DNA from: Gilliamella sp. App4-10
GTDB lineage: Bacteria > Pseudomonadota > Gammaproteobacteria > Enterobacterales > Orbaceae
Length of the DNA: 64,000 nt
Assembly: GCF_001690495.1 (NCBI RefSeq)
Contig: NZ_LZGS01000038.1
Location: forward strand, 1 to 64,000
Reading direction: 5' to 3'
Shown here: positions 13,428 to 20,624 of the stretch, in pieces
Numbering within the stretch: position 1 is the stretch's first letter
How the letters are laid out: every line of letters begins with the position of its first letter
Notes under the pieces: generated by a model
Seen by the model: only the letters and a program-made list of their open reading frames with translations
Told to the model about the DNA's origin: nothing
The model's database searches: none
Program-made: the position numbers and the translations under genes

Positions 13428-14258
13428 ATGAACCCGTTCACGCCATATAGTATATACGGTATTATCGGTTATCCTTTAGGACATAGTATGAGCCCCCTTA
13501 TTCATACTACATCATTTCAGGATTATGGTATTCCCTCAGTTTTAGTTCCTTTTGCTACGCCACCCGAAGATATTTCAACCTTATTCAAATCTGTAAGATT
13601 ATTAAACATACGGGGATTGTGTGTCACTATTCCGCATAAGCAAACGATTATCCCCTATTTAGATAAAGTGACTGAGCATGTAAAAAAAGCAGGTGCTGCT
13701 AATTTAGTCTATTGGGAGGGTGATAAGCTTTGTGGTGAGAATACTGATATTGTTGGTTTTATGCAACCTCTTGAACAGAAGAAATTACCGGCTGAATATA
13801 AAAAAGTTTTATTACTAGGAGCTGGTGGTGCAGCACGCGCTGCGGTTGTCGGATTACAGGATCTTGGTTATACCGATATTACCGTGACTGACATAGCGAG
13901 TGACTTACCCAAAGCGTTAGCCAAAGAATTCAATCTTAAAATAGTTGCTTGGGAAGAACGCAGCCACGTTGAAGCGCAAATTATTATTAATTCTACTCCC
14001 TTGGGTATGCAAGGCAAATTTGAAGATCAGACCCCTTATGAACAAGCTTGGTTTAAAGGAAAAGGTTTAGCTTATGATATTGTTTATACACCATATAATA
14101 CACGATTTAGACAAGAGGCAGAAAAAGCTGGCTGGGAATCTATTTCAGGGCGTGAAATGTTTATAGAGCAAGCAAATGCACAATTTAAAATTTGGACAGG
14201 AAAAAATCTTTCCGATAGGGCAAAACAAGCTGTAATAGATGCTTTAGCTGGAAAATAA
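13428..14258 (+). CDS. aroE: Shikimate dehydrogenase (AroE family)
   Basis: The product belongs to the shikimate/quinate dehydrogenases, which reduce 3-dehydroshikimate with NADPH. The N-terminal substrate domain has GYPLGHSMSP (substrate serines), VTIPHKQ (catalytic Lys) and GENTDIVGF (catalytic Asp). The nucleotide domain has GAGGAARAA (near residue 130), and NSTPLGM and DIVYTPYNTRF follow. It starts MNPFTPYSIYGIIG after AAGGAG. At 276 residues it is family-sized. In its details it resembles neither E. coli AroE nor YdiB closely, and it sits in a cluster with ydiL-, aroL- and YdiN-like genes, so it could be a second, quinate/shikimate-utilisation enzyme rather than the housekeeping AroE. 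Confidence 0.88.
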   Translation: MNPFTPYSIYGIIGYPLGHSMSPLIHTTSFQDYGIPSVLVPFATPPEDISTLFKSVRLLNIRGLCVTIPHKQTIIPYLDKVTEHVKKAGAANLVYWEGDKLCGENTDIVGFMQPLEQKKLPAEYKKVLLLGAGGAARAAVVGLQDLGYTDITVTDIASDLPKALAKEFNLKIVAWEERSHVEAQIIINSTPLGMQGKFEDQTPYEQAWFKGKGLAYDIVYTPYNTRFRQEAEKAGWESISGREMFIEQANAQFKIWTGKNLSDRAKQAVIDALAGK

Positions 14259-14362
14259 ATATTGCAAATAGAACATACATTTCATTAAAGTGAATGAGAT
14301 GTATGTTAAATAAAATTAAATGTTTATTGTTTAAATTAGTTATATTATTAAAAGGAGTATTT

Positions 14363-14716
14363 ATGACAAACCTTGAATTGCAAGCTTATCGTCGTTTTCT
14401 GATGCTAAAAGTATCAGAAGCTAGCCAATATATTGGTAAAACGGATGCTAAAACATGGTATGATTGGGAGAATGGTACTATACCCGTGCCTGAGTTTGTT
14501 GCAAACACAATGCAAGAGCTGAAAAAGCTTCGCAATGATAAAATTAATATTATTATCAATAGTATCAATGATCGTGTTGGCAGTAATATAATACGTTACT
14601 TTATGACATATGAAGAATTTAAAAAAATTAATCCTAATCTAGACGTGGTGCAATGGCGATTACATCAATCAATTGCCACAGAGCTCTATTTTCGTGGTTT
14701 AGAAAAACTATGTTAA
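14363..14716 (+). CDS. ydiL: YdiL-like protein (DUF1870)
   Basis: The 117-residue product matches E. coli YdiL, a small helix-turn-helix-like protein of unknown role. Shared blocks are ELQAYRR near the start, W-x-x-W-E-N-G (HTH-like region, residues ~32-38), INDRVGSNIIRYF in the middle and HQSIATELYFRGLEKLC at the end. The start at 14363 follows AAAGGAG and matches the YdiL N-terminus; an upstream ATG would add a hydrophobic 23-residue extension that is probably leader. In E. coli ydiL lies next to ydiM, ydiN, ydiB and aroD, and here it lies between aroE and aroL and near a YdiN-type transporter, so a regulatory role for this shikimate cluster is a reasonable guess. Confidence 0.85.
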   Translation: MTNLELQAYRRFLMLKVSEASQYIGKTDAKTWYDWENGTIPVPEFVANTMQELKKLRNDKINIIINSINDRVGSNIIRYFMTYEEFKKINPNLDVVQWRLHQSIATELYFRGLEKLC

Positions 14717-14897
14717 TTAGCTTTATCAAGATGACTTTTGGAGTCTAAAAGGCTTTTTTATAACTTTTTTAAATAATTATTTACAATCAATCTTATGGAA
14801 ATTTAATTTAATTATCTAAAAAAATATATTGCAAAAATAAGGGCGAATCACTAGCATGGTCAATATATTCTGTAAATCTGGAAAGATAGAACCCGAT

Positions 14898-15410
14898 ATG
14901 AATAAAACAATTTTTTTAGTTGGTGCAAGAGCGGCAGGTAAAACAACAATGGGAAAGATGTTAGCAAATAAACTATCGTTTTCTTTTATTGATACCGATC
15001 GCCATTTACATGAAACTACTCAAAAAACAGTGGCTGAAATTGTTGAAAAAGAAGGTTGGGAAGGATTTAGAGCAAGGGAAAGCCAAGTGCTTGTTGATAC
15101 AACTAAACCCAATAGTGTCATTGCAACTGGTGGAGGCATGGTATTAGCTGAGCATAACCGTCATTTTATGAAACAAAATGGTACAGTTATCTTTTTATCT
15201 GCGCCCGCATCAACACTAGCTGCTCGTTTAATGAAAGATCCGAATGTTGCTCAAAGACCATCGTTAACGGGCTTATCTATTGCAGATGAAATAGATAAGG
15301 TATTAGCTGAAAGACTGCCTTTATATCATGATGCTGCTCATTATGTGGTGAATGTTGATCAAGATGAAAACTTGATCTTAGCTCAAATGCTCGAAATGCT
15401 CGAAGACTGA
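14898..15410 (+). CDS. aroL: Shikimate kinase AroL
   Basis: Shikimate kinase phosphorylates shikimate with ATP in the common aromatic pathway. The Walker A motif GARAAGKTT is near residue 10, FIDTDRHL binds magnesium and substrate, GFRARES carries the shikimate-binding arginine, ATGGGMVL is the second glycine loop, and AQRPSLTG is the lid. The NRHFMKQNGTVIFL segment matches AroL rather than AroK. The start at 14898 aligns with E. coli AroL; an in-frame ATG at 14856 would add 14 unconserved residues, and neither has a strong ribosome site. No TyrR box is evident upstream. It is followed by a terminator. Confidence 0.92.
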   Translation: MNKTIFLVGARAAGKTTMGKMLANKLSFSFIDTDRHLHETTQKTVAEIVEKEGWEGFRARESQVLVDTTKPNSVIATGGGMVLAEHNRHFMKQNGTVIFLSAPASTLAARLMKDPNVAQRPSLTGLSIADEIDKVLAERLPLYHDAAHYVVNVDQDENLILAQMLEMLED

Positions 15411-15428
15411 ATTTAAGTTTTTTATCAG

Positions 15429-15454
15429 ATACCACTTAAAAAGTGGTATTTTTA
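15429..15454 (+). terminator. Rho-independent terminator after aroL
   Basis: A 9-bp perfect stem (ATACCACTT with AAGTGGTAT), AAA loop, then TTTTTATT. Confidence 0.88.
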
Positions 15455-15647
15455 TTAGTAATAGACAACAATAAAATTTAATAAAAATTCTATATAATTT
15501 TAATTTTCTGTCAGATTTTTACTATTTTTTAGGAATAAAGAAGATAAAAGCCAAGTAACAAATCTAGACTTACTCTTTCCGCTTAATATTGATACATATA
15601 TATTGAATAGAGCTAAAGTTTTATGTTTTACATATGGAGTATGACAA

Positions 15648-16847
15648 ATGGAAAATCGAAAGGTCAATTCTTATGGAATTGTTGGATCTATTTATGCAAA
15701 CTACATTATTCAAAGTATTGCGCTAATTGTGATTATGCAATTTTCTCAAGCGCTTTCAAAGCAACTAAATACTGATATAGTTGGGCTTGGTTATGTTGCA
15801 TCAGGTATAGGAATTGGCAAAATATTTTTAATGTTCGTTGGTGGGGTGCTATCAGATAAATTTGGTAGAAAGTTATTTATTTATCTAGGTATGATCTGTT
15901 ACTCTATCTTTTTTGTAGGAATGACCTTTTGTACTAATATTCACGTGGCTTTTTGTTTAGCGATTGCTGTGGGTGCTGGGAACTCTTTTTTAGATACAGG
16001 CTCAATGCCCGCATTAACTGAATGTTTTCCGCGTTCAGCGGGATCTGCTAGTGTACTTATTAAAGCATTCATTTCTATCGGAACACTCATTCTTCCATTT
16101 ATTGTTACCTTCTTTGACACCAATCAAATATGGTATGGTTGGGCGTTGCTCGGATTCACCGCTTACTTAGCGATTAATAGCTTATTGCTATTAACTAAAC
16201 AATTCCCCCATAAAGATACTGCAATAAAAGGATGTCGAGGGGAAGAAAATTATTTTAAAGCAAAACCTAAATTTGAAGTTGAAGGCATTTTATTGATTCT
16301 TATGGGGTTTACAACGACAGCAACATTCGTCATTATTTTGCAATGGTTACCGACTATTGCTATTAATGGTGTTAATATGAATGATCTTGATGGCAAACAA
16401 CTGATTAGCTATTATAGTACTGCATCAATTATCTCTGTATTTGTTACGGCCTTTGTTGTTAAACATGTATTAAAACCTATCTTTTGTATCATTATTTTGC
16501 CTACCTTATCAGCGTTGGTACTAATCGTTTTTTATTTTAATATTTCACCTGCAATGTGTGTTATTGCTGCAATAGGAATGGGGTTTACTGCAGCAGGAGG
16601 CGTACTTCAATTAACTTTGGTTGTGATGCAACAACTGTTCCCAACACGTAAAGGGCTTGCTGTAGGTTGTATGTACACTTTTAGTGGACTATCGTTTGTT
16701 GTCATTCCGCTTATAGTGCCAAAATTAGCAATTCTCAATGTAAGTTATGCTATTTTAATAGACTTTTTTATTGCAGTCTCAAGTGTGGTATTTGGGTCAA
16801 TTGTTTTTTATCGTTTTAAAAAGGTGATTGATTTAACAAAAATATAA
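15648..16847 (+). CDS. MFS transporter, YdiM/YdiN-like
   Basis: A 399-residue major facilitator with about twelve membrane segments. The MFS loop 2-3 signature appears as GGVLSDKFGRK (near residue 65). Matches to E. coli YdiN/YdiM are clear at the D-T-G-x-x-P-A-L-x-E-C-F-P block (near residue 120), at SYYSTASII and at GFTAAGGVLQL. In E. coli these transporters sit beside ydiB and aroD and are thought to handle a shikimate- or quinate-like compound. Here it follows the aroE-ydiL-aroL cluster, but with its own 237-nt upstream region and after a terminator, so it is a separate transcript. Substrate unknown. Confidence 0.85.
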   Translation: MENRKVNSYGIVGSIYANYIIQSIALIVIMQFSQALSKQLNTDIVGLGYVASGIGIGKIFLMFVGGVLSDKFGRKLFIYLGMICYSIFFVGMTFCTNIHVAFCLAIAVGAGNSFLDTGSMPALTECFPRSAGSASVLIKAFISIGTLILPFIVTFFDTNQIWYGWALLGFTAYLAINSLLLLTKQFPHKDTAIKGCRGEENYFKAKPKFEVEGILLILMGFTTTATFVIILQWLPTIAINGVNMNDLDGKQLISYYSTASIISVFVTAFVVKHVLKPIFCIIILPTLSALVLIVFYFNISPAMCVIAAIGMGFTAAGGVLQLTLVVMQQLFPTRKGLAVGCMYTFSGLSFVVIPLIVPKLAILNVSYAILIDFFIAVSSVVFGSIVFYRFKKVIDLTKI

Positions 16848-17903: not shown

Positions 17904-18662
17904 TTATTTTTTCATTTCTGCAATTTTTTTACGAATATTAGCAGCACGATCTGATGAGGAAGGATGGCTACTTAAGATTGAAGCATCACCACCACCTAAT
18001 TTATCAAACGCTGAAGCAAGACCTGATGGATCGATATTTCTTTTTACTAGAAAATCAAAAGAGTAGTTATCTGCTTCTTTTTCTTGACTTTGGGAAAATT
18101 GAGCATTAATAACCGAGGTAGCTAAAGCGCCTAGTGAAGATTTAGATAATTTAGCTACAGCCGCATTACCTGATATAGCAACAGTATCATGTGCTACTTC
18201 GGTTGCATAAGCAACTTGCATAGCTTTCTTACTATGGCCTAAAGCAACGTGACCTAATTCGTGACCTAAAACACCTGCAATTTCATTGTCAGTCATCATG
18301 TCCATTAAACCACTATAAACACGAACACAACCATTAGCCATAGCCCAAGCATTAACTTCTTTTGTAATGTATACTTTATAGTTAATTGGCGTACCGTTTA
18401 AATTGTTACCAAGTGATTTAGCGACTTTATTTAATCGTTTAGTATAAGGGCTTTTTTCTGAAGCTATTTTTGATTCAGCATCCATTTCCGCACAAGCTTG
18501 TTTAGCTACTTCCTTTACATCATTATCACTGAGAGTAGCAGCTTTCAAACCTTTCATGCCAAGACTAGTTAGATCATCTACACTCAGATTTTTACAACCA
18601 ACTAGTGACATTGCAGCAACTAAAGGTAGTGCAACTAACAATGTTTTTTGATGTGTTTTCAT
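17904..18662 (-). CDS. loiP: LoiP-like M48 metalloprotease lipoprotein
   Basis: LoiP (YggG) is a zinc metalloprotease anchored to the outer membrane by its lipid. The signal peptide ends in L-V-G-C (Cys23). The zinc motif HELGH is at residues 134-138, preceded by M-T-D-N-E-I-A-G-V-L-G, and the third ligand is the glutamate in QEKEADNYSFDFL. SSHPSSSDRAANI completes the M48 pattern. At 252 residues it equals E. coli LoiP in length. AAGGAAAAAAGT lies before the ATG. It is divergent from queA. A second, more diverged copy lies at 19935-20624 on the same strand. Confidence 0.92.
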   Translation of the reverse strand: MKTHQKTLLVALPLVAAMSLVGCKNLSVDDLTSLGMKGLKAATLSDNDVKEVAKQACAEMDAESKIASEKSPYTKRLNKVAKSLGNNLNGTPINYKVYITKEVNAWAMANGCVRVYSGLMDMMTDNEIAGVLGHELGHVALGHSKKAMQVAYATEVAHDTVAISGNAAVAKLSKSSLGALATSVINAQFSQSQEKEADNYSFDFLVKRNIDPSGLASAFDKLGGGDASILSSHPSSSDRAANIRKKIAEMKK

Positions 18663-18762
18663 ACTTTTTTCCTTATATTAACATAATTCATTTTTCTCAC
18701 TTTCGTTAGTTCGAAGAATTTTAACGTAACTTTAATAATAATCAATGAATAATTACTTGATT

Positions 18763-18800
18763 AGGCATTATGGGGGCTTTAGACTAATGCCTCATTTTTT
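18763..18800 (+). promoter_or_regulatory. Terminator-like hairpin in the queA leader
   Basis: AGGCATTA (18763-18770) can pair with TAATGCCT (18785-18792) over a 14-nt loop, followed by CATTTTTTG. It ends only about 14 nt before the queA start codon, so it looks like an attenuator or a translation-control hairpin. The loop and 3' tail do not match the preQ1-I consensus that I know. Confidence 0.4.
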
Positions 18801-18813
18801 GAGGACCCTAATT

Positions 18814-19854
18814 ATGCAACTATCCGATTTTGATTTTTATCTTCCAAAAGAACTGATTGCCAAACATCCTTCAAAAACCAGAAGTGAATGTCGACTTTTA
18901 TCACTTGATAGTCATACAGGTAAAGTTGAAGATAATATATTTACTGATATTATCGATAAAATAAATCCGGGTGATTTACTTATTTTTAACAATACAAAGG
19001 TTATTCCTGCTCGCGTGTATGGAAAAAAAGCTTCAGGAGGAAAAATCGAAATATTAATTGAAAGGATATTAGATAGTAACCGAGCGCTTGCGCATATTAA
19101 GGCATCGAAATCACCCAAAGTAGGCGCTGAACTGATATTAGGAGAAGATGCGTCAACTCATGTTACGATGCTAGCACGCCACGATACTCTATTTGAATTG
19201 CAGTTTCCCGATGATGTACTGAGCATTTTAAATAAAATTGGCCATATTCCATTACCGCCTTATATCGATCGTCCAGATGATGAACAAGATCGTGAAGTTT
19301 ATCAAACTGTCTATAGTAAAGTGCCCGGAGCAGTCGCAGCCCCCACTGCCGGTCTTCATTTCGATAAACCTTTATTAGAAAGACTAAAACAAAAAGGAGT
19401 TGAAATGGCATTTGTGACTTTACACGTTGGAGCAGGAACTTTTCAGCCAGTTAGAGTCGAAAATATCCAAGCGCATATTATGCATTCAGAATATGCAGAA
19501 GTACCTGAGTCCGTTGTGAATGCTATATTAGCATGTAAAGCAAGAAACAATAAAGTTATCGCTGTGGGGACAACATCTGTTCGTGCTTTAGAAAGCGCCG
19601 CACAAAGAACAGGTAAAATCACACCTTTTTTTGCCGATACCCAAATTTTTATTTATCCAGGCTACCAGTTTAAGGTCATCGACTCCCTCATCACCAATTT
19701 TCATCTGCCTGAATCAACGTTGATTATGCTTGTTTCTGCATTTGCTGGTTACGAAAATACCATGAATGCTTATCAACATGCAGTTAAAGAAAACTATCGA
19801 TTTTTTAGTTACGGTGATGCTATGTTTATCACTGATCTGAATAATCAATCTTAA
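18814..19854 (+). CDS. queA: S-adenosylmethionine:tRNA ribosyltransferase-isomerase QueA
   Basis: QueA transfers and isomerises the ribosyl group of SAM onto preQ1-tRNA, giving epoxyqueuosine. The 346-residue protein starts [19 protein letters not shown], the family N-terminus, with GAGGA 8 nt upstream. Further landmarks are [21 protein letters not shown], the [13 protein letters not shown] active-site block, [11 protein letters not shown] and [13 protein letters not shown]. An upstream start in frame would add 23 unconserved residues. It is close to the family length (356 in E. coli). Its usual operon partner tgt lies 900 nt downstream, separated by an opposing M48 gene. Confidence 0.96.
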
Positions 19855-19934: not shown

Positions 19935-20624
19935 TTATTTACCGTTTATCCTATTAATAATATTCGTTATGCGTTTTTTGCTTGAAGGGTGAGATGTTGG
20001 ATTATTTGTTGAATGAATAGGCACTTTTACTAGCATTTCAACTAAACTCATCGGATCAATATTTTTACTCTCTAATAAATCAAATGCATAATTATCAGCT
20101 TCGATTTCATATTGTTGAGCAACTTCTTCTTTAGCAATAATAACAAGTTCTTCAATGTTATCAGTAAATTCAATATAAGGGGCTTGTAGAAATAAACTAA
20201 CTGCATGTTTGAGTGCTATATGCGCCTGTTCGTGAGCAAGCACTGCTTGTAACTCATTATCATTTAACAATTTTATTAAGCCACTGTTGACACGTATGCA
20301 ACCATTAGCGGTAGACCATGCATTAGGCTCGGTATTAATATAGACTTTATAATTTATCTCAATATTATTCGCTTTTGTGGGTAAGGTGTTAGCAATTTTA
20401 TTTAGCCTTTGGTTTAATGCATGATCGTCAGCAGGAATCACTGCTCGCTTATCTATTTCAATGCAAGCAAGTTCACTAATGGCGAATATATCATTTTCAG
20501 ATAGCGATTTAAGCCGTTCGGAGGTAATGACTTTTGGATAAGTCTTATCTTGGATCTGACAGCCAGTGATTAAAAACATCAACAAACACAACAAGAATAA
20601 AATAATACGTTTCAAACTATTCAA
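19935..20624 (-). CDS. Second LoiP-like M48 metalloprotease lipoprotein
   Basis: This is a diverged paralog of the 17904-18662 protein, 229 residues. It has a lipobox I-T-G-C (Cys22), the zinc motif HEQAH at residues 131-135 (ligand histidines and the catalytic Glu intact), ANGCIRVNSGLI upstream, QYEIEADNYAFDLLESKNIDP for the third ligand, and SHPSSKKRI at the end. It is predicted to be a periplasm-facing zinc protease anchored by lipid. It is inserted against the direction of queA and tgt, which are adjacent in most relatives. Both active-site motifs are intact, so I expect activity. Confidence 0.85.
   Translation of the reverse strand: MNSLKRIILFLLCLLMFLITGCQIQDKTYPKVITSERLKSLSENDIFAISELACIEIDKRAVIPADDHALNQRLNKIANTLPTKANNIEINYKVYINTEPNAWSTANGCIRVNSGLIKLLNDNELQAVLAHEQAHIALKHAVSLFLQAPYIEFTDNIEELVIIAKEEVAQQYEIEADNYAFDLLESKNIDPMSLVEMLVKVPIHSTNNPTSHPSSKKRITNIINRINGK

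Follow-up and report, generated by a model that had tools for sequence, protein, structure and literature searches.

A Gilliamella aroE-ydiL-aroL-ydiN cluster as the probable remainder of an ancestral Orbaceae shikimate/quinate locus

The stretch of DNA analysed here (the window; 64,000 nt of contig NZ_LZGS01000038.1, coded C38, from Gilliamella sp. App4-10) carries four genes on the plus strand between positions 13428 and 16847: aroE, ydiL, aroL, and a gene for a YdiN-like transporter of the major facilitator superfamily (MFS). Based on a family comparison set of 44 Orbaceae genomes (coded by G numbers, their loci by L numbers), we consider it rather probable that these genes are what remains in Gilliamella of a cluster of the Orbaceae ancestor, aroE-ydiL-aroL-ydiN-(ydiM-TIM barrel)-ydiB-aroD, with a core and an accessory layer. 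For the core, the family ancestor would have taken its AroE from a Desulfovibrionaceae-like donor, displacing the native aroE; AroE would reduce dehydroshikimate to shikimate, and AroL, expressed from its own promoter under TyrR-type control, would phosphorylate the shikimate. In the accessory layer, the YdiN-like transporter would move quinate and/or shikimate across the membrane, YdiB would interconvert quinate with dehydroquinate and shikimate with dehydroshikimate, and AroD would link the two, so that external quinate or shikimate could enter the chorismate route or an excess could leave. YdiL, acting as a repressor with a dimeric helix-turn-helix fold, would most likely fine-tune this accessory layer.

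The features of the locus are as follows.

13428-14258, plus strand: aroE, shikimate dehydrogenase (TIGR00507); nearest relatives outside the family in Desulfovibrionaceae; Asp155 replaces the Asn of the NADP+ "NRT" motif
14272-14307, plus strand: inverted repeat with 15-nt arms and a 6-nt loop, directly after the aroE stop; terminator-like reading, by eye
14363-14716, plus strand: ydiL, Aca2/YdiL-family helix-turn-helix protein of 117 aa (PF08965)
14768-14785, plus strand: TyrR-type box before aroL, with one mismatch
14829-14857, plus strand: predicted aroL promoter (TTGCAA, 17 nt, TAGCAT), by eye, overlapping a conserved CACTAG
14898-15410, plus strand: aroL, shikimate kinase II (PRK03731)
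15576-15604, plus strand: promoter-like block, conserved, upstream of the MFS gene (TTTCCG, 17 nt, TATATT), by eye
15648-16847, plus strand: YdiN-like MFS transporter gene (PF07690)

The four-gene cluster described in a first-pass annotation of the window is real, as all products score above the cut-offs of their families: AroE with 212 bits (cut-off 200.2), YdiL with 113.8 bits over the whole Aca2_YdiL model (gathering cut-off 23.8), AroL with 238.6 bits (cut-off 161) and the MFS protein with 103.3 bits (cut-off 33.4), while the curated-model profile search returned no model named YdiN for the latter. Starts conserved in relatives make 14363 and 14898 the likely true starts of ydiL and aroL; the ydiL ATG listed at 14294 falls within the hairpin after aroE.

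Two layouts and a transporter module

In five Orbaceae genomes (G004, G011, G043, G038, G039), aroE, ydiL, aroL, the MFS gene, a second MFS gene, ydiB, and aroD lie in one stretch of about 8-12 kb. The second MFS gene is on the opposite strand in G043, G038, and G039, rsmB and a Na+/H+ antiporter gene sit inside the cluster of G004 and G011 (in G011 by eye), and G036 has the same cluster minus ydiL and the second MFS gene. E. coli K-12 shows the order ydiL-ydiM-ydiN-ydiB-aroD, and essentially this layout is also found in three further genomes from another family of the order. Homologs are common to both loci, with identities between the window's genome and E. coli of 53% for YdiB, 55% for AroD, 34% for YdiL, and, for the MFS protein, 36% to YdiN and 31% to YdiM, which places it nearer YdiN; unlike the E. 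coli locus, the Orbaceae cluster also includes aroE and aroL. Given the one-stretch clusters and the E. coli-type layout, the two arrangements are best understood as parts of a single cluster that overlap. Hence, both layouts noted in the first-pass annotation exist, but probably as fragments of one ancestral cluster rather than as separate associations.

The genome of the window (2.43 Mb in 53 contigs) carries ydiB-aroD on another contig (C35) than the aroE cluster; the gene adjoining aroD matches the YdiB quinate/shikimate dehydrogenase model PRK12749 with 379.9 bits (cut-off 349). In all seven single-contig Gilliamella genomes (G001, G002, G006, G007, G012, G026, G029), the native or only ydiB is more than 100 kb away from aroE. 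A search at E 1e-40 detected no second YdiM/YdiN-like gene in the window's genome. Where an intact ydiL closely follows aroE (32 genomes), aroL comes next in 31 cases, and in the remaining one the contig ends, so that this gene order is not due to chance. Overall, aroL is present at 38 of 42 aroE loci; it was not seen there in G035, G037, and G040, and G033 has a contig end.

A TIM-barrel gene (AP_endonuc_2; L069:13642-14463 and relatives) occurs in 16 of the 44 genomes and is broken in two of these; among the 14 intact copies, 12 are located directly upstream of ydiB and two (G035, G037) elsewhere, and the window's genome has none. Its product shows a weak match to the dehydroshikimate dehydratase QuiC, with Lmo2234 as the closest solved chain, and could route dehydroshikimate to protocatechuate. 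In one locus, aroE and ydiL are separated by a gene for a DkgA-like aldo-keto reductase (L069:6977-7852), and inserts of ~1 kb in L068 and L072 resemble it by eye.

The MFS gene and ydiB are each present in 37 of the 44 genomes, and these are the identical 37; G003, G009, G020, G024 (only 67% complete), G028, G041, and G042 have neither. On the aroE gene tree of 42 genomes, each gene is missing on four branches, in all four cases together with the other. Fisher tests, which ignore kinship, gave 2e-7 for MFS with ydiB and 4e-4 for MFS with ydiL.

Moreover, in six Gilliamella genomes (G005, G012, G019, G025, G026, G032), the MFS gene is not with aroL but at a distance of 0.5-3 kb from ydiB; G033, where it is on a different contig from the cut cluster, is uninformative for linkage. 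In the four of these six whose loci were read (G012, G025, G026, G032), ydiB and aroD are placed with those of other Orbaceae genera, and a single Gilliamella clade was rejected by approximately unbiased (AU) tests with p 0.048 for ydiB and 0.0001 for aroD. In the foreign ydiB-aroD loci (L232, L240, L241, L244), aroD is closest to genus g5. G012 harbors both a native and a foreign ydiB, and in G041 and G042, which are devoid of ydiB, aroD follows aroL.

Loss and transfer thus seem to affect the MFS gene and ydiB as one module, and their joint absences, together with the foreign ydiB-aroD beside the MFS gene, argue that the transporter is coupled to quinate/shikimate chemistry. In line with this, the earlier view of the locus as a shikimate/quinate island to which the YdiN-like transporter belongs is borne out by the one-stretch clusters with ydiB-aroD and by the co-occurrence in 37 of 44 genomes. 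Some points weigh against so firm a coupling. A kinship-aware sign test on four independent pairs gave p 0.125, too few events for significance; the presence/absence tree is that of a single gene, aroE, and its change counts cannot separate loss from gain. As the MFS gene and ydiB are near neighbors in the relatives of G041 and G042, one deletion each could suffice there, and two deletions seem to be needed only for the two Gilliamella events of joint absence.

A comparable neighborhood is known from YdiM/YdiN homologs, about 75% of which adjoin shikimate genes, as in the locus described here, although even in E. coli no cargo has been firmly assigned to YdiN (PMC10588857); the section of that paper on these neighborhoods does not mention ydiL. 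What our comparison adds is the joint absence of the MFS gene with ydiB and their movement within Orbaceae. In a carbon-limited E. coli producer, ydiB, aroD, and ydiN are reported to rise together (PMC4585142). The candidate transporter might act as an overflow valve that exports surplus shikimate, quinate, or dehydroshikimate instead of importing plant acids, a possibility that we regard as the weaker one but do take seriously: E. coli YdiN has been proposed as an exporter of aromatic by-products, although the same review also considers it an importer (PMC4585142), and deletion of ydiN in an E. coli producer raised shikimate about 1.3-fold, which its authors attribute to less re-uptake (PMC8788726). 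These E. coli papers do not bear directly on the Orbaceae protein, for which import of plant-derived quinate or shikimate, as suggested in the first-pass annotation, is plausible.

Further downstream in the window, two M48 peptidase genes on the minus strand (17904-18662 and 19935-20624; 37% identical, lipoprotein-like by eye) flank a gene at 18745-19854 that was named queA by eye.

Ancestry and cofactor motif of AroE

AroE of the window type was found in 42 of the 44 family genomes; the two exceptions have a completeness of 67% and 81%. The window's aroE is the only classical AroE gene found in its genome, which showed no aroE of the gammaproteobacterial type. A second aroE, which the first-pass annotation wanted checked, was found only in the sense that two further AroE-family genes are present, the ydiB directly before aroD (C35) and an SdhL-type gene (C10). 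The AroE scan considered the best 80 of 560 matches and used patterns derived from Orbaceae AroE, which favors look-alikes. Among these matches, the best ones outside the family were 20 loci from Desulfovibrionaceae or close kin (some titled only "delta proteobacterium" or "Deltaproteobacteria") with 41-52% identity, compared to at most 34%, among the matches listed, in 36 other genomes of the order.

Phylogenetic analysis was based on 78 AroE rows, including all 20 Desulfovibrionaceae-group loci, 31 of 54 "other" loci (thinned by position), and 13 gammaproteobacterial rows, i.e., E. coli and 12 chosen from the 36 other order genomes, two of which turned out to be SdhL-type. A reduced set of 35 rows was also analyzed. 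In both trees, Orbaceae AroE is placed with or inside Desulfovibrionaceae in a starred grouping, and the AU test on the 35 rows rejected a clade of Orbaceae and gammaproteobacterial AroE (p 0.028). Since Desulfovibrionaceae are the nearest relatives and a gammaproteobacterial-type aroE was not found in the genome, AroE is probably a transferred replacement of the native gammaproteobacterial gene, with a Desulfovibrionaceae-like donor as the presumed source and Orbaceae as the recipient.

Alternatively, AroE could have been inherited vertically and evolved fast, its likeness to Desulfovibrionaceae being an artefact. The 78-row set did not reject the corresponding clade (AU p 0.18), the gammaproteobacterial AroE branch is long in both trees, and the scan patterns came from Orbaceae AroE itself; in addition, the 35 rows were picked from the 78 after the first AU test, and nesting inside Desulfovibrionaceae was not significantly different from a sister position (AU p 0.39 and 0.135). 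All of this tempers the transfer reading. Nevertheless, the gap between 41-52% and at most 34% identity, the starred grouping in both trees, and the rejection in the reduced set leave vertical descent very improbable, and we retain a transferred AroE as the probable reading.

The protein is atypical, as had been noted earlier, both in its nearest outside kin and in lacking the usual NADP+ motif. Ser22, Thr67, Lys71, Asn92, Asp107, Tyr220, and Gln248 are present in 42/42 family AroEs, and position 20 is Ser in 34 and Thr in eight; we assume the roles of the catalytic Lys/Asp pair and of the substrate residues by correspondence to E. coli AroE. The N-R-T motif at the end of beta 2, which we take to bind NADP+, is absent: Asp155 occupies its first position in 40 of 42 family AroEs, the next position is Arg in only one of 42, and the motif position reads D-I in 39. 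On general knowledge of Rossmann enzymes, this replacement of N-R-T by D-I predicts a preference for NAD+. The loop reads T-D-I in Orbaceae AroE and mostly N-R-T/S or C-T-P-S-D in the Desulfovibrionaceae proteins. A quinate dehydrogenase, one of the groups with which the first-pass annotation wanted this AroE compared, was rejected by profile scores (PRK12749, YdiB, 100.7 versus a cut-off of 349; PRK14027, NAD+ quinate/shikimate dehydrogenase, 87 versus 515); the AroE trees place the enzyme with or inside Desulfovibrionaceae, even if vertical descent survives with 78 rows.

Control of aroL and the role of YdiL

Upstream of aroL we find a box, TGTAAA-N6-TTTACA, which we take to be the TyrR consensus. 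It is perfect in 14 genomes and has at most one mismatch in 33 of 38, including the window's copy. A box within one mismatch occurred in 0.8% of dinucleotide shuffles and in none of the upstream regions of aroE (0/39), ydiL (0/33), and the MFS gene (0/27). The genome encodes a TrpR and a TyrR-like protein, the latter with 480 bits (below the cut-off of 576), its profile being matched only from position 175 on. The conserved CACTAG overlapping the predicted promoter may represent a TrpR half-site. A TyrR-type box, placed far upstream, and an ACTAG close to the -10 region are, by eye, also features of the E. coli aroL promoter; unlike in E. coli, the Orbaceae promoter follows ydiL directly, and the exact spacing differs. 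These elements suggest that aroL is under TyrR-type control, against which one has to hold that the box is poor or gone in five genomes, with three mismatches in G009, G020, G028, and G026 and two in G010. A search of the window's own genome for the exact box gave zero matches, as did the control. The box-less clade of G009, G020, and G028 (L085, L126, L133) is also devoid of MFS gene, ydiB, and ydiL, while G026 (L131) lacks the box although the module is present.

The hairpin after aroE is found in most of the genus and retains its pairing across species while its letters change (by eye). Because the pairing outlives the letters and the repeat directly adjoins the aroE stop, we read it as a terminator-like transcript end, although no T run follows the window's copy, and rejected this 36-nt inverted repeat as a YdiL operator. 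In G004 and G011, ydiL begins about 10 bases past the aroE stop. In most of the genus, aroE, ydiL, aroL, and the MFS gene seem, by eye, to have separate promoters, and the well conserved spacer of the block upstream of the MFS gene is possibly a regulator site.

With aroE in 42/44 genomes, aroL at 38/42 loci, and the TyrR-type box before aroL, these two genes look like the housekeeping part of the cluster. It could be argued that nothing more is present, i.e., that aroE and aroL serve aromatic amino acid synthesis only and that ydiL and the MFS gene are unrelated neighbors, to which the seemingly separate promoters would add. We consider this unlikely: MFS presence equals ydiB presence in 44/44 genomes, the joint absences already weakening it, the linkage recurs in E. 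coli, and ydiB-aroD beside the MFS gene moved between genera. The first-pass annotation would have abandoned its island for a sole and plain housekeeping aroE; aroE and aroL indeed have this appearance, but the quinate part consists of the transporter and YdiB, with ydiB-aroD elsewhere in the genome.

YdiL is intact in 34 of the 44 family genomes, a remnant in two (G003, G008), and absent from eight, two of which are less than 85% complete. When 394 genomes were drawn evenly from the order, 50 gave a match to the YdiL family, 43 of them over the cut-off; outside Orbaceae, only four exceeded 90 bits, of which three adjoin ydiM as in E. coli and the fourth is an Aca2 within phage-like DNA. Among 398 phylum-wide genomes (own included), five matched. 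The neighbors of ydiL, whose survey had been proposed, are far from random, as in 32 of the 34 Orbaceae genomes with an intact copy it is found no more than about 1 kb downstream of aroE. The further claim that YdiL acts on the pathway fares less well. ydiL is missing together with the MFS/ydiB module in three of the four absence events, and it is also missing on three other branches where the module is kept (G008, as a remnant, G036, and G040). Conversely, G041 keeps ydiL without the module, and in G035 and G037, of two genera, ydiL has a kefB-like antiporter gene on one side and a purine-permease-like gene on the other (by eye).

By sequence, the window's YdiL matches the structures of Salmonella YdiL (1S4K, E 7e-25) and Aca2 (7EZY, E 8e-20; also 7B5J), which belong to the same Pfam family. 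Aca2 is a DNA-binding autorepressor (PMC8434428, PMC9410906), and Arg30 in its recognition helix contacts DNA and is needed for autoregulation; the former paper also proposes YdiL as a regulator and points to inverted repeats in the vicinity of the Salmonella ydiL gene, one of them covering the -10 site, at which autorepression might take place (PMC8434428). In YdiL, however, the Arg30 position is Lys in the window and Arg in 0/32 Orbaceae proteins. Across 34 YdiL proteins of Orbaceae, variation is greatest in the recognition helix (mean top-residue frequency 0.71) and in helix 4 (0.74) and smallest in the last helix (0.95) and at the C-terminus (0.97). N69, R71, G73, E107, and the final Cys occur in at least 95% of Orbaceae YdiL and in 4/4 E. 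coli-like YdiL; of two Aca2-like proteins compared, neither has R71, E107, or the Cys, and one has N69 and G73. The shikimate-gene neighborhood likewise sets Orbaceae YdiL apart from Aca2. Conserved C-terminus and variable recognition helix together speak for a conserved role of the C-terminus, perhaps in sensing a ligand, rather than for a single fixed operator.

A repressor acting on the module thus has to face the missing Arg30, the variable recognition helix, the copies that go their own way, and an upstream alignment of ydiL that, inspected by eye and without a motif program, showed no conserved inverted repeat of the kind to which Aca2 binds in its promoter; moreover, Salmonella ydiL was described as non-essential and not expressed in 22 conditions (PMC8434428). 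YdiL could instead be a domesticated phage-type Aca2 autorepressor, a bystander that does not act on the shikimate genes, as would fit the common Pfam family, the match to Aca2 structures, a true Aca2 in phage-like context in G126, and the unrelated neighbors in G035 and G037. We judge this somewhat doubtful, since 32/34 intact copies follow aroE so closely, ydiL is next to ydiM in 4/4 E. coli-like loci, and R71, E107, and the terminal Cys are common to Orbaceae and E. coli-like YdiL and lacking from both Aca2-like proteins; a repressor of the accessory module remains our preferred role. Two Aca2-type genes were located (L101:8809-9186 and L107:7460-7798): the G126 protein reads like the 7EZY chain and is encoded near a terminase-like ORF by eye, and a short relative is present in G010 within phage-like DNA.

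Quinate and shikimate in insect-gut Orbaceae

Several bee-gut bacteria deplete quinate, which probably comes from pollen; the passages describing this do not name Gilliamella among them (PMC5726620). Winter bees have increased quinate and shikimate, which that study took for intermediates made by bacterial biosynthesis (PMC9600256). Among 95 Gilliamella genomes surveyed, a membrane shikimate/quinate dehydrogenase gene, quiA, was found in seven and a quinate transport gene in none of the seven (PMC11325843). The YdiN-like MFS protein is a candidate for this lacking transport gene. In the literature searched, which consisted in part of listings or passages, we found no prior report of the points made here on Gilliamella aroE, its transfer, quinate in Gilliamella, or a YdiL-shikimate connection.

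Taken to its furthest, and as a long shot, the data could mean that Orbaceae rebuilt their shikimate step, with a transferred NAD-linked AroE and a removable YdiN-YdiB-AroD salvage module fed by pollen acids, which YdiL would repress while sensing quinate or shikimate via its C-terminal domain (N-x-R-x-G, terminal Cys). If true, such a repressor would give the long-orphan YdiL of E. coli a function. Independent of this, YdiN and, more loosely, YdiL, both orphans, are tied to a removable module by presence and absence beyond mere neighborhood, which makes their roles directly testable. The shikimate metabolism of these bacteria is of practical interest because of glyphosate and pollen quinate, and the apparent replacement of a core biosynthetic enzyme, with a predicted change of cofactor, would extend across a bacterial family of the insect gut.

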